Shown: positions 4,888-8,370 of the stretch, piece after piece
How positions within the stretch are numbered: position 1 is the stretch's first letter
How the letters are laid out: each line of letters starts with the position of its first letter
Source of the DNA: an archaeon
Lineage (GTDB): Archaea; Nanobdellota; Nanobdellia; Woesearchaeales; GW2011-AR9
DNA: 10,329 nucleotides
Assembly: GCA_023266155.1 (NCBI GenBank)
Contig: JAHFRS010000004.1
Coordinates: forward strand, 1 to 10,329
Direction: 5' to 3'
The notes under the pieces: model-generated
What the model saw: only the letters and a program-made list of their open reading frames with translations
Told to the model about the DNA's origin: nothing
The model's database searches: none
Translations under genes and position numbers: made by a program

Positions 4888-4914
4888 TACGTTGTGTTTA
4901 CTATAAGTAAACGT

Positions 4915-5442
4915 ATGTTTACCATGAGAAAAAAAAACACCCTGCCCGGCTCGGTTGCGGCCTTGCAGCAGGCTTATACTCATTGCGAACAGCGGGGAAG
5001 ATTTAAAGAAATTGATAAAACTGCCTACGCCGACTATCTGCTGCGCGCCCAGAAAGATTTGTCTTCTGCGGAAAGGGATCTCCACGCTGGCGATTTGCAC
5101 TGGGCGAGAGTAAAGGCCTACCAATCCCTGTTTCACCTACTTAATGCTCTGTTCGTCAAGCACGCAGGTTATTTTTCTAAAGACCACGGTTGCATTCTGG
5201 TGGCGTTGATGACGCACAATATTATTACCCCAGAGATTGCTGATCGGCTTCAGCTCTTAACCGCTAAAACGATTAAAGAAGCGGCGGCGCGGAAGGTGTA
5301 CCAGGATTTAGATGAATTTCGTCTGCAACGCAATTTTGCTTTATACAAGCCAAAAGCCTGGGAAGAGATTAAAACCGAAGATGTGGCAGAAGAAATCAAA
5401 AAAATTAAAGCGAACTTTAAAATTTTGCTGGAGCTGCTATGA
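4915..5442 (+). CDS. HEPN-domain protein paired with a nucleotidyltransferase (toxin-antitoxin-like), RX4H motif altered
   Basis: 175 residues from ATG 4915 (alternative starts GTG 4894 and ATG 4924). It is all-helical: a long first helix (YLLRAQKDLSSAERDLHAGD), the HEPN signature helix WARVKAYQSLFHLLNALFVKH, and a late helix with LQRNFALYKP. In HEPN ribonucleases of MNT-HEPN systems this last place carries R-x4-H; here it is R139-N-F-A-L-Y144, so the catalytic His is Tyr. The gene overlaps the next one by ATGA, and the partner is an MNT-type nucleotidyltransferase, the classic arrangement in which the nucleotidyltransferase modifies or neutralises the HEPN partner. A non-nuclease HEPN of the PaREP1/COG1895-COG2250 type is therefore as likely as an active toxin. 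The promoter sits next to the MITE-like element. Confidence 0.8.
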   Translation: MFTMRKKNTLPGSVAALQQAYTHCEQRGRFKEIDKTAYADYLLRAQKDLSSAERDLHAGDLHWARVKAYQSLFHLLNALFVKHAGYFSKDHGCILVALMTHNIITPEIADRLQLLTAKTIKEAAARKVYQDLDEFRLQRNFALYKPKAWEEIKTEDVAEEIKKIKANFKILLELL

Positions 5443-6044
5443 GCTTATTAACAGTTTTACCGTTGAGCAAAAATAAACTGGCGTTGTTAACAGAGATTTA
5501 CCTTGCTCAGGAAGATTACCTGAGGAATCTGGAGAAAAAAACCCATCTTAATCCTTCTTTACTGCACCGTTTGCTGGCTAACCTTTCTAAAGCCGGAGTA
5601 CTTTCTAAACAAAAAAAGGGGAGGGAGATTTACTACTCGTTATCTTCTGAACAGCACGATTTCTGGGAAAAAATGATCGAAACCTATCGTCGGGAGATCG
5701 TTCTAGAGAAATATGCCGATTTAAAAGTGCTCTTCAAACTGCTGTTAAGCAATAACCGGATCTTTAAAAATTCCCTGCAGATTTATCTTTTTGGCTCGTT
5801 TGCCGCTGGAGAGATTAATAAAGATAGTGATCTGGACCTGTTATTCATCACCCGGCAAAAAAAGGCAATTTTGGAATGGTGTCGAGAGGTTTCCGTCGTG
5901 CTTAACCGGGAAATTAATCCTTTGATTTATACTCCCGCCAGATTCCAGAAAGAGTTAGCGCGGAAAGAAACTTTGCTGACGTCCATTATTAATAAGGTTA
6001 GGAACAGAATTATACTCAAAGCTCGGTGGGAGACGATAGACTAA
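5439..6044 (+). CDS. Winged-helix/MNT nucleotidyltransferase, partner of the HEPN protein
   Basis: 201 residues. Residues about 8-70 form a winged helix-turn-helix (LLTEIYLAQEDYLRNLEKKT, a recognition helix near 39-52, then the wing GREIYYSLS), as in ArsR/MarR-like fusions. Residues about 105-190 are a minimal nucleotidyltransferase domain with GS(119-120)-x10-D131-L-D133, the metal- and nucleotide-binding motif, and an acidic residue at E159 that may be the third carboxylate. The start ATG overlaps the HEPN stop codon (ATGA) with GGAG five bases upstream, so translation is probably coupled. In MNT-HEPN pairs the nucleotidyltransferase AMPylates its HEPN partner. The DNA-binding domain suggests that the pair regulates its own promoter, which is inference. 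Confidence 0.85.
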   Translation: MSLLTVLPLSKNKLALLTEIYLAQEDYLRNLEKKTHLNPSLLHRLLANLSKAGVLSKQKKGREIYYSLSSEQHDFWEKMIETYRREIVLEKYADLKVLFKLLLSNNRIFKNSLQIYLFGSFAAGEINKDSDLDLLFITRQKKAILEWCREVSVVLNREINPLIYTPARFQKELARKETLLTSIINKVRNRIILKARWETID

Positions 6045-6110: not shown

Positions 6111-6157
6111 AAAACCTTAATTCTTAGAAAAAGTAAAGGGCTCGTAGCTCAGTGGTA

Positions 6158-6192
6158 CTTTGCGTAAGCAAGAGCTTGCGCGAAGCGCAAAA
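6158..6192 (+). other. 35-nt palindromic insert in the tRNA-Ala D-loop
   Basis: The insert separates AGTGGTA from the 3' D-stem strand GAGC. It folds on itself: GCGTAAGC-AAGA-GCTTGCGC, or TTTGCG closing with CGCAAA, or TTGCGC-GAA-GCGCAA. I tested the two boundary placements that give an unchanged tRNA and found no bulge-helix-bulge for the splicing endonuclease, unlike the anticodon intron. It may be a non-canonical intron, an expanded D-loop that stays in the RNA, or an inserted palindromic element. Confidence 0.75.
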
Positions 6193-6208
6193 GAGCGCCT
6201 GCTTTGCA

Positions 6209-6298
6209 AGCAAGTTACACTATGCAAGTCGTACTCAAGTGGGGCATTCGCTTCGCTTAGCCCCACGACACTGGCAAAATAGTGCGGCTTGTCATAAG
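6209..6298 (+). other. 90-nt tRNA intron at canonical position 37/38 with bulge-helix-bulge
   Basis: Archaeal splicing geometry can be drawn exactly: outer helix = anticodon stem CCTGC/GCAGG; 4-nt central helix TTTG (6203-6206) with CATA (6293-6296), three pairs and one T-T mismatch; bulge CA|A (6207-6209); inner helix GCAAG (6210-6214) with CTTGT (6288-6292); bulge AG|A (6297-6299). Inside are a CACTAT/ATAGTG stem (6218-6223 with 6279-6284) and a GTGGGGC/GCCCCAC hairpin (6239-6245 with 6260-6266). It is removed by the tRNA splicing endonuclease. No reading frame of note lies inside. Confidence 0.85.
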
Positions 6299-6321
6299 AG
6301 CAGGAGGCCTCGGGTTCGATC

Positions 6322-6458
6322 CCCGACGAGTCCATGAACAAAGTGAAATGGAGCCGGCGGACCCGACAACTGCAGTTGTCGTTGCCCGACGAGTCCATGA
6401 GCAAAGCGAAGGGAACGGCGGGCTCAAAGGTAGCTCCTTTGTTTGCCCGACGGGTCCA
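6322..6458 (+). repeat. Tandem copies of the tRNA 3' end with palindromic spacers
   Basis: CCCGACGAGTCCA, the 3' T-stem strand plus acceptor and discriminator, occurs in the tRNA (6322-6334), again identically at 6385-6397, and as CCCGACGGGTCCA at 6446-6458; periods are 63 and 61 bp. After the first two copies the similarity runs on (ATGAACAAAGTGAA versus ATGAGCAAAGCGAA, then a CGGCGG word). The rest of each unit is a hairpin of unrelated sequence: the perfect palindrome CGACAACTGCAGTTGTCG (6364-6381) and CAAAGG-TAGCT-CCTTTG (6425-6441). Repeated tRNA 3' ends are typical traces of integration at tRNA genes, but no integrase gene is present here. Confidence 0.8.
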
Positions 6459-6469: not shown

Positions 6470-7387
6470 TCAATTTACCGCCTGCGTCGTCAAATTCGGC
6501 TGTGAAATCAGAAATAATAATTTTGATAGATACATGGAATGATAAATAATTATTGATTCTTCTTTAGTGCATTTCTCGAACAATTCATGACCCTCTTTAA
6601 AATAAATTTCTTCCCACTCTTTGTTTATCTTGGCAAAATGGCGTGAATCTTTTTTGAAAAACATTTCTTTGAAGAGCAGGAACAGGCTGCAGACCCGAAA
6701 GTACAACTTTTTGACTTCTTCTCTGGCTTTGGGCTTTTTGATCTTACTTATTTTTTGATATAAGTAATAATGATTATGCTCAATAAGGATCAATCTTTCT
6801 AATAGCAGATGAAGAAAACTTTCTTCTTTTCTATTGGTAATGCTGGTCTTATGCAAAGTTCTGGTGCAGAACAGTAAAAAACGCCTGACATCATTTGATT
6901 GCGTTTCTATCTCAGAAAGACGCGGAAAAGAGAGTTTTTTGATATCCTCTTGAACTAGCTCTTGAGTGTAGGTGATGATATTTAATGAACGCTGGAGCAA
7001 CGTATTGAATTGCTCTGCGGAAGGCTGAGCAGTGGCGGCTATTTTGCAGAAATTATTTTTGTGTTCCACGATTTCAAAGCCAATGAGGTTGGAGACGATT
7101 CGTTGGATAATGGGAAAAGTATGGGCATCATTAAGTTTAAGGTCCAGAATATCAACTCCTTTCAGATAATAGTTTTCTACTATGATTCGATAATATTCTG
7201 AAGTGCCCCTCTCTAAAGTTAAAGAAATAGTGTGCAGTTCTGGCTGTTTTTGAGTTCGGATCAGGAGTCCATCCGCTTCTTCATTCAGTTCAATTTCATC
7301 TTTTGCGTTGAGATGGTGATCTCTGATCCATTCAATAGGCAGGGTGATGGTGTAGGCGCTTTTCTGTTTGATGATGCGGCGTTTCAT
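6470..7387 (-). CDS. AbrB-PhoU family regulator
   Basis: 305 residues. Residues 1-50 (KRRIIKQKSAYTITLPIEWI, then DEIELNEEADGLLIRT) form an AbrB/SpoVT swapped-hairpin DNA-binding domain; residues about 120-295 are an all-helical PhoU-like domain. This fusion is common in archaea and is annotated as a phosphate uptake regulator. Bacterial PhoU carries two E-x3-D metal motifs; the first place retains acidic residues around E159-D166, but the second (LERLILIEHNHYYLYQKI, 196-213) lacks the usual Asp, so metal clusters may not form. No Pst phosphate transporter genes are beside it, so its target is open. The gene is divergent from the helix-turn-helix gene across a 96-bp AT-rich gap and convergent with the tRNA. 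The coding DNA is visibly more AT-rich than that of polB. Start set by the TATA box 28 nt upstream. Confidence 0.85.
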   Translation of the reverse strand: MKRRIIKQKSAYTITLPIEWIRDHHLNAKDEIELNEEADGLLIRTQKQPELHTISLTLERGTSEYYRIIVENYYLKGVDILDLKLNDAHTFPIIQRIVSNLIGFEIVEHKNNFCKIAATAQPSAEQFNTLLQRSLNIITYTQELVQEDIKKLSFPRLSEIETQSNDVRRFLLFCTRTLHKTSITNRKEESFLHLLLERLILIEHNHYYLYQKISKIKKPKAREEVKKLYFRVCSLFLLFKEMFFKKDSRHFAKINKEWEEIYFKEGHELFEKCTKEESIIIYHSMYLSKLLFLISQPNLTTQAVN

Positions 7388-7411
7388 ATCTAAAGCTGGT
7401 TCTTTGACGGG

Positions 7412-7419
7412 TTTATATA
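7412..7419 (-). promoter_or_regulatory. TATA box of the AbrB-PhoU gene
   Basis: Read on the minus strand as TATATAAA, centred about 28 nt before the ATG at 7387; leaderless start predicted. Confidence 0.5.
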
Positions 7420-7445
7420 TTTTTCGTATGATTACTACGGATAAA

Positions 7446-7457
7446 ATATAATATATA
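7446..7457 (+). promoter_or_regulatory. AT-rich promoter of the helix-turn-helix gene
   Basis: An alternating A/T run (ATATAATATATA) lies about 30 nt before the ATG at 7484 and directly abuts the in-frame ATG at 7457. If this is the TATA box, translation starts at 7484, not 7457. Confidence 0.45.
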
Positions 7458-7483
7458 TGGTATCAAGACTTGAAAGTAATAAC

Positions 7484-8137
7484 ATGGAAAGAAAAACACT
7501 TGCTGAACGGATTAGAGAGATTATTGAAGAGAGGAGAACTTCAAATAGTTTGTCTTCTGAAATCACCTCTAACCGCGCCTATTCGTTTGTTATTGATAGT
7601 TCTCGTTCCTGCGCTCTGAAGGATTTAGAGAGTTTTGCCTCATTGCTTGATCACTTGCCGTTGGTATTTTATGATAAAATGACGGGAAAGGCAGAGGAAA
7701 GTACCGATCAGAGATATCGTTATGGAATAATTCCTTTCCGAAAATATATGGAGGAAATCTTTGAGAATAAAATGGCAGAATTTAACTTGTCTCAGGCAGA
7801 GCTAGCTAAACGAGCAAAACAAGCCCCCTCAACAACTTCTATGATCCTGTCAGGTATCCGTAGCTGTAAAACTCATACCCTTGAATTGATGGCTGATGCC
7901 ATAAATTTATTTCCGGTCTACTTGATACCGAAGAATACTGGAGTTGTACCTGTAGAATTATACAAAAGCCATCTAGACCAGTTAGTCGACTTATTTCGTC
8001 AGTATGTGCTGATTAAAGATTCAGAAATTCAACCGGATGATTTGCGTCGAGCTATTGATTACGGAGAGAGAATTGCTGAATGGACGGAAGCATTACGAGT
8101 GCGATATGCTGCGCTAACTTCACCTCACAAAAAATAA
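7484..8137 (+). CDS. Helix-turn-helix (XRE/lambda-repressor-like) protein of unknown target
   Basis: 217 residues from ATG 7484; an in-frame ATG at 7457 would add nine residues but overlaps the putative TATA run. The N-terminal helix (MERKTLAERIREIIEERR) is followed by a region of about 60 residues with no recognised family. Residues about 100-148 form a lambda-repressor-like helix-turn-helix: NLSQAELAKRAKQAPSTTSM, ILSGIRSCKTHTLELMADAI. Helix 2 has the usual Q-x-x-L-A pattern and helix 3 is the recognition helix. A C-terminal helical part (160-210) may mediate dimer formation. It is a likely DNA-binding regulator, perhaps of its own divergent promoter region shared with the PhoU-like gene. 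It ends 110 bp before the rRNA promoter and is not part of the rRNA transcript by promoter position. Confidence 0.8.
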   Translation: MERKTLAERIREIIEERRTSNSLSSEITSNRAYSFVIDSSRSCALKDLESFASLLDHLPLVFYDKMTGKAEESTDQRYRYGIIPFRKYMEEIFENKMAEFNLSQAELAKRAKQAPSTTSMILSGIRSCKTHTLELMADAINLFPVYLIPKNTGVVPVELYKSHLDQLVDLFRQYVLIKDSEIQPDDLRRAIDYGERIAEWTEALRVRYAALTSPHKK

Positions 8138-8279: not shown

Positions 8280-8370
8280 CGCCTTCAGGAAACCATTTCC
8301 TGGCGGTGATCTAGGTAGCTATGAGGAGAGTTCTCCTCGTTATAACTCATAGTAATGAACCGTAGGTAGA
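8280..8370 (+). other. Structured 5' leader of pre-23S rRNA
   Basis: Two hairpins precede the mature end: CAGGAAA-CCA-TTTCCTG (8286-8302) extended by CGC/GCG (8280-8282, 8303-8305), and a second with CTATGAG/CTCATAG (8319-8325, 8346-8352) or the competing GAGGAGA-GT-TCTCCTC (8323-8338). The long processing stem that normally surrounds archaeal 23S cannot be tested because the 3' flank is outside the window. Confidence 0.5.

Follow-up and report, generated by a model that had tools for sequence, protein, structure and literature searches.

How does a tRNA gene that is interrupted in both its D-loop and its anticodon loop give rise to a working tRNA? The question is raised by a tRNA-Ala(UGC) gene in a 10,329-nucleotide stretch of DNA (here, "the window"), which is contig C141 of a draft genome from the Woesearchaeales (G000; 1.19 Mb, 186 contigs, 82.66% complete, 5.56% contaminated). 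Relatives of its DNA polymerase B, 60-70% identical in the best segment, are encoded at nine named loci (5 from Woesearchaeota, 2 from Nanoarchaeota, and 2 labeled simply as archaeon), and we accordingly treat the organism as a member of the Woesearchaeota. A first-pass annotation had placed the gene, with its two interruptions, at positions 6138-6334. It described the anticodon-loop insert as a standard intron, found no bulge-helix-bulge (BHB) motif for the palindromic insert in the D-loop, and proposed that the latter is removed by a different route, is retained in an enlarged mature D-loop, or is a fresh palindrome that the tRNA tolerates. The comparisons described below instead make it very probable that this is a functional Woesearchaeota tRNA-Ala(UGC) gene carrying two archaeal-type introns, one of 35 nt at site 20/21 and one of 90 nt at site 37/38.

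As read from the sequence, the gene occupies 6138-6334 on the plus strand, on which all of its parts lie, and is 197 nt long with its inserts and 72 nt when mature. Exon 1 (6138-6156) supplies the 5' strand of the acceptor stem, the 5' strand of the D stem (6147-6150), and the D-loop bases AGTGGT. Exon 2 (6192-6208) runs from A21 through the 3' strand of the D stem (6193-6196) and along the anticodon arm up to A37, including the anticodon TGC (6205-6207); exon 3 (6299-6334) adds A38, the 3' strand of the anticodon stem, the T arm, and the 3' strand of the acceptor. The acceptor stem, GGGCTCG/CGAGTCC, includes the G3-U70 pair. Default ARAGORN calls no tRNA gene in the unspliced window. When the sequence is spliced computationally at both inserts, it calls a 72-nt tRNA-Ala(tgc) with every stem paired, which confirms the two interruptions and the isotype first assigned; thus, removal of the D-loop insert leaves a regular cloverleaf, as is expected of a BHB intron.

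Does each insert carry a splice motif? For the 90-nt insert at 37/38 (6209-6298), a helix check agrees with the earlier description: a 3-4-3 BHB with a single T.T mismatch in the central helix, an inner helix of 7 bp, and an outer helix of 5 bp. The claim that the D-loop insert lacks such a motif proved wrong. At 6157-6191, the 4-bp D stem itself (GCUC/GAGC) forms the outer helix; the central helix pairs AGUG (AGTG in the gene, 6151-6154) with CGCA (6186-6189) at three of four positions (G-C, U.G, and G-C), leaving an A.A mismatch next to the D stem. The two 3-nt bulges are GU^A (GT^A in the gene, 6155-6157), which completes the 5' side of the motif (6151-6157), and AA^A (6190-6192), which completes the 3' side (6186-6192). 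The inner helix is a run of 12 contiguous pairs, 6158-6169 with 6174-6185, so that the hairpin spans 6158-6185. The result is a 3-4-3 motif with two 3-nt bulges, flanking helices on both sides, and one central mismatch, from which cuts would be expected after 6156 and after 6191. The 35-nt palindromic insert had been reported one base later, a register that yields the identical mature product.

In a scan for splice pairs along the gene, which used a custom score with minimum helix lengths, the 37/38 intron ranked first (19.0) and the D-loop intron second (18.0). Shuffling the D-loop insert 20,000 times, half with dinucleotides preserved and half plainly, and accepting either of two registers, gave 213 sequences that form three or more of the four central pairs together with an unbroken inner run of 4 or more; the corresponding values for the real insert are 3 and 12. 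Because this many shuffled sequences pass, the motif by itself is suggestive but not conclusive, and the case for a D-loop intron rests on conservation of the motif in relatives.

The motif is indeed kept. Two other genomes of the family, G017 and G198, carry a related insert at this site, making three sequences from two lineages in all. In each of the three, the outer helix is formed by the D stem, there are two 3-nt bulges, three of the four central pairs form, and the A.A mismatch recurs; the inner helices measure 12 bp in G000, 6 bp in G017, and 7 bp in G198. There is also a compensating change: exon U16 faces an intron G in G000, and exon G16 faces an intron U in G017 and G198. Given the BHB, the regular spliced tRNA, and the related introns with their paired change, the D-loop insert can most likely be regarded as an unexceptional archaeal tRNA intron, located at one of the known noncanonical sites, and a separate route of removal, as first proposed, finds no footing when the insert has a BHB of its own whose outer helix is the D stem.

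We therefore envisage, on the basis of sequence comparison, a precursor in which the D stem would act as the outer helix of the D-loop BHB, the central helix would form between D-loop bases and the 3' portion of the intron, and the inner helix would come from the hairpin within the intron. The splicing endonuclease would then cleave in both 3-nt bulges, and an RNA ligase would join the exons. We infer that this cutting and joining occurs in the cell and that the cleavage would be performed by the single alpha-type endonuclease of the lineage.

The alternative that fares best, although we judge it quite improbable, is that the D-loop insert is never spliced and that mature tRNA-Ala retains an enlarged, hairpin-bearing D-loop. 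By itself the insert does fold as a 12-bp hairpin. Retention would nonetheless give no reason to expect the 3-4-3 placement, a compensating change among relatives, or a restored AGTGGTA loop, and a pattern search matched a normal, uninterrupted Ala(UGC) D-loop at 12 places in 11 of 49 family genomes. An enlarged loop and a tolerated fresh palindrome are likewise difficult to reconcile with position, outline, and pairing that are kept in G017 and G198.

Slightly less probable still is a decaying gene copy that has taken up a palindromic insertion while a different tRNA-Ala(UGC) serves in its place. Short stretches of the tRNA 3' end do recur downstream (6385-6397 and 6446-6458), and with an assembly that is just 83% complete, a second Ala(UGC) copy may exist elsewhere in the genome. 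Against this, the stems and the G3-U70 pair are intact, the D-loop insert is kept across genera, and the pattern search matched no uninterrupted Ala(UGC) D-loop in G000, G017, or G198, the latter two being 96% complete. The genomic setting also bears on the matter. According to Rfam, a 23S rRNA gene begins at 8370 in the window, downstream of tRNA-Ala, with two protein genes in between (6470-7387, minus strand; 7457-8137, plus strand). In 13 relatives (the set used for the 23S tree, below), the Ala gene starts 257 to 502 nt ahead of the 23S match, and in five of six loci scanned with Rfam (L131, L140, L147, L078, and L079, from four relatives) it lies between 16S and 23S; the same scan found no rRNA within the locus excerpted from G000 itself (L148). 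Since the relatives' copy sits in the rRNA spacer, the gene is the tRNA-Ala(UGC) of the ribosomal spacer, which is longer here than in those relatives, and this position, together with the lack of a matched uninterrupted D-loop, weakens the idea of a decaying copy, which the first-pass annotation had named as the outcome that would undo its claim.

We note in passing that the two genes at 6470-8137 encode a MazE/AbrB-domain protein and a helix-turn-helix (HTH) protein, the spacer of relatives being a few hundred bases, and that on the other side of tRNA-Ala (4894-6044) lie adjacent HEPN-domain and nucleotidyltransferase-domain genes, arranged as in a HEPN/MNT toxin-antitoxin pair.

That the D-loop insert is an artefact of assembly or binning deserves hardly any credence: the genome is a draft from a metagenome with 186 contigs and 5.56% contamination, but G017 and G198 have related sequence interrupting the identical site, and in G001 the 90-nt intron recurs with 93% identity. 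Group I introns are far longer than 35 or 90 nt, and we rejected this class for both inserts on grounds of length and because the window has no Rfam match to it at E values up to 1. Such introns have been reported in archaea, including Woesearchaeota (PMC6125680). Weak Rfam matches to mir-280 and sR14 in the window were disregarded.

How widespread is the D-loop intron? An exact pattern for an interrupted Ala(UGC) D-loop, run against 352 genomes of the order, matched three of them, namely G000, G017, and G198, a lower bound given that such a pattern would miss diverged genes. A survey of 60 genomes including our own, with one mismatch allowed, gave 17 places in 16 genomes; 16 genes remained after L049, which has a different anticodon, was dropped. 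Two of these 16 (G000 and G017) carry the D-loop insert, and three others (G001, G026, and G035) have T-loop introns. Is the insert conserved in relatives, then, as the first-pass annotation had left to comparison? Only in part: it occupies the identical position in G017 and G198 and is absent from G001, a member of the same genus as G000, so that the distribution is patchy, which, like the A.A mismatch common to all three carriers, counts against the intron reading. A tree was built from 14 partial 23S sequences, with L051 and L061 left out as short and L065 as a second copy from G002; in it, G000 groups with G001 (support 92/94) and G017 with G198 (100/97). A single-origin clade of the three carriers is rejected on these partial sequences (AU test, P = 0.003), and the intron requires two changes on the tree. 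Because the three carriers have the outer ACTT and GAAGCNCA parts in common, two gains are no more possible an explanation than transfer or an old loss.

The Ala gene is far from alone in being interrupted. All 16 tRNA genes of G000 that we could parse at full length are interrupted (each at least 85 nt), a figure that is no census, because the draft is incomplete and tRNA patterns were used to find the genes. In G000, 15 matches to the Rfam tRNA model came up at E values up to 10, five of them at E values up to 0.001; each of the 15 was inspected, and none is an uninterrupted tRNA gene. By reading, D-loop inserts are present in the Ala gene, two Pro genes, an Ile gene, an Arg-like gene, and a gene at C40, six in all, and T-loop inserts in eight genes; not all of these inserts were ranked on top by the splice-pair scan. 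Isotypes are tentative for several of the tRNAs, among them those at C90, C11, and C40. The Pro(GGG) gene, for example, has a 27-nt intron with four of four central pairs, and three introns, placed 1, 2, and 5 by the scan, interrupt the Arg-like gene at C65. D-loop and T-loop introns with BHB motifs in other genes of the same genome further weaken the proposals of a different route, an enlarged loop, or a tolerated palindrome for the Ala gene.

Across the family, a T-loop-intron pattern (GGTTCAAA-N12-42-GAAAGTCC) occurs at 91 places in 42 of 49 genomes; the reversed pattern gave no match in the same genomes. The exon parts rejoin as the loop TTCAAAT, which places the site at 59/60 by our own numbering. 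Are these introns bounded by strict motifs as well? We examined 31 of them, from 30 loci (L081-L110) out of the 91 places. Of the 31, 20 form the fourth central pair, while at the strict register 3 of 31 have at least 4 inner bp, against 2% of shuffles, and the mean inner-helix run is 1.26, against 0.70 in shuffles; longer inner runs appear at shifted registers. The proposal that all T-loop introns are strict 3-4-3 motifs was dropped on these counts (3 of 31), and the T-loop introns are relaxed on the intron side.

The anticodon-loop intron raises a different question, namely, whether such introns move. A repeat core within it (6234-6257) occurs at four places in G000 and seven in G001, with up to 3 mismatches allowed; its reversed control occurs at none in either genome. 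By reading, the repeat fills the Ala 37/38 intron of both genomes, three T-loop introns of G001 (in an Asp-like gene, a Lys gene, and a third gene), and an Arg-like T-loop intron of G000. The remaining five places lie outside recognizable introns, and two of them adjoin repeated tRNA 3' ends (L144 and L153). The 90-nt G000 Ala intron is 93% identical to the G001 Ala intron; 84%, 87%, and 81% identical to the Asp-like, Lys, and third T-loop introns of G001, respectively; and 63% identical to the Arg-like T-loop intron of its own genome. For the comparisons with T-loop introns, the alignment scores range from 60 to 130, against at most 23 in 500 shuffles each. Because one family of 37/38 introns fills the T-loops of other tRNAs and also occurs outside introns, we infer that spread by transposition-like copying is most likely.

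Several arrangements near tRNA genes may be recorded here. At L153 (contig C27 of G001), a copy of the Ala-intron repeat is flanked on both sides by nearly the same tRNA T-arm/acceptor end, which looks like an insertion accompanied by duplication. At L035 (contig C47 of G000), the 3' part of a tRNA-Ser gene recurs 93 nt downstream and is followed by a reversed Ala-intron repeat (L144). At L071 (contig C40 of G000, about 302-500), a tRNA gene is followed by a short element, which by eye resembles the one behind tRNA-Ser, and then by a partial repeat of the gene's 3' end. Finally, the 3' end of tRNA-Ala, CCCGACGAGTCCA (6322-6334), has the two downstream copies given above, the second with one change, at spacings of 63 and 61 nt with short palindromes in between.

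Which enzyme would remove so many introns? PF01974 has one match in 46 of 49 family genomes, none in 2, and two overlapping pieces in 1; it matches in all 25 genomes with completeness of 90% or more and contamination of 5% or less. With E values up to 10, there is still one match in 9 of 12 genomes; the weak second matches in the other 3 (E values of 0.01 to 0.12) fall at a cutoff that also hit two bacterial controls. The enzyme of G000, encoded at L006:1189-1788, has 199 amino acids and aligns across the entire chain of 1a79, the Methanocaldococcus jannaschii alpha4 splicing endonuclease, as well as with 3iey_A; the catalytic Tyr, His, and Lys are present in the alignment. In the N domain, a stretch of 100 residues aligns to 108 of 3p1z_B, from A. 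pernix. This single gene for a two-domain catalytic subunit, with neither fusion nor second subunit found, fits the alpha4 type, although a very divergent partner subunit may conceivably exist. Relative to 1a79, the enzyme has a longer N-terminal tail and an N-domain loop that is one residue longer, in which a lysine has no counterpart. The loop is short (consensus RFGxxxExGKxELSLLE), and the lysine is present in 20 of 21 aligned family sequences, drawn from 47 genomes with a PF01974 match; in the alignment, the loop falls close to Y160/K161 in the loop of ARMAN-2 (PMC12397907).

The enzyme thus does not fit the broad-specificity types (alpha-beta/CSL or epsilon2/ASL), as no second subunit was found and the loop is short. 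According to reviews, relaxed-motif introns are efficiently removed by alpha-beta and epsilon2 enzymes only, species with CSL or ASL loops tend toward more introns (both PMC6379350), and alpha-only enzymes favor strict motifs (PMC6379350 and PMC12397907), a preference that, with many T-loop introns of the family being relaxed, counts against the splicing proposed here. The lineage would therefore depart from the published link between enzyme and introns unless the short loop substitutes for the longer ones or a divergent partner was missed. Very tentatively, and as the less probable outcome, we speculate that the family combines near-complete interruption of its tRNA genes with a single-subunit endonuclease made broad by the lysine loop and that its introns are a mobile repeat bearing its own splice motif. 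The repeat would land in the anticodon loop, the T-loop, or tRNA 3' ends; insertions would be tolerated because it brings that motif along; and the lysine loop would do what CSL or ASL loops do in other archaea.

How does this compare with what is known? The statement that noncanonical introns are found mainly in Thermoproteales was too narrow: published reports add Nanoarchaeota, Thaumarchaeota, and Asgard archaea (PMC4090602, PMC8450103, and PMC11291895), with reports from Crenarchaeota and Thaumarchaeota in PMC8450103, and sites 20/21 and 59/60 are both among the archaeal intron sites published in PMC4090602. As described in PMC4090602 and PMC8450103, Thermoproteales and other Crenarchaeota share with our genomes BHB splice sites, up to three introns per gene, and similar introns at different sites in different tRNAs. 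They differ in having a two-subunit enzyme, where one alpha-type gene was found in the Woesearchaeota, and in that one Woesearchaeota intron has copies outside recognizable introns. The apparently mobile introns have parallels in the transposition of introns reported from Thermoproteales (PMC4090602) and in a mobile-element model put forward for Caldiarchaeum (PMC3293823). PMC11291895 reports that 92 to 95% of tRNA genes are interrupted in three Asgard genomes; Atabeyarchaeia and Freyarchaeia are alike in that nearly all tRNA genes are interrupted, often multiply and at noncanonical sites. They belong to another phylum, and the likeness rests on intron frequency and sites. We found no report of tRNA BHB introns in Woesearchaeota in the open-license text of PubMed Central; subscription or preprint work may exist.

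The D-loop insert itself is known archaeal biology; its setting is more unusual. Counts of tRNA genes in these genomes warrant caution, as ARAGORN and the Rfam model miss interrupted genes here (default ARAGORN called none in five further tRNA loci of G000). Worth following are the family-wide interruption alongside a lone alpha-type endonuclease gene and the shared, moving intron. Noncanonical introns together with that lone gene offer a test of the proposal that introns and endonuclease types coevolve, and G000 and G001, two members of one genus that differ in introns of known sequence, are a natural system in which to study how tRNA introns spread.
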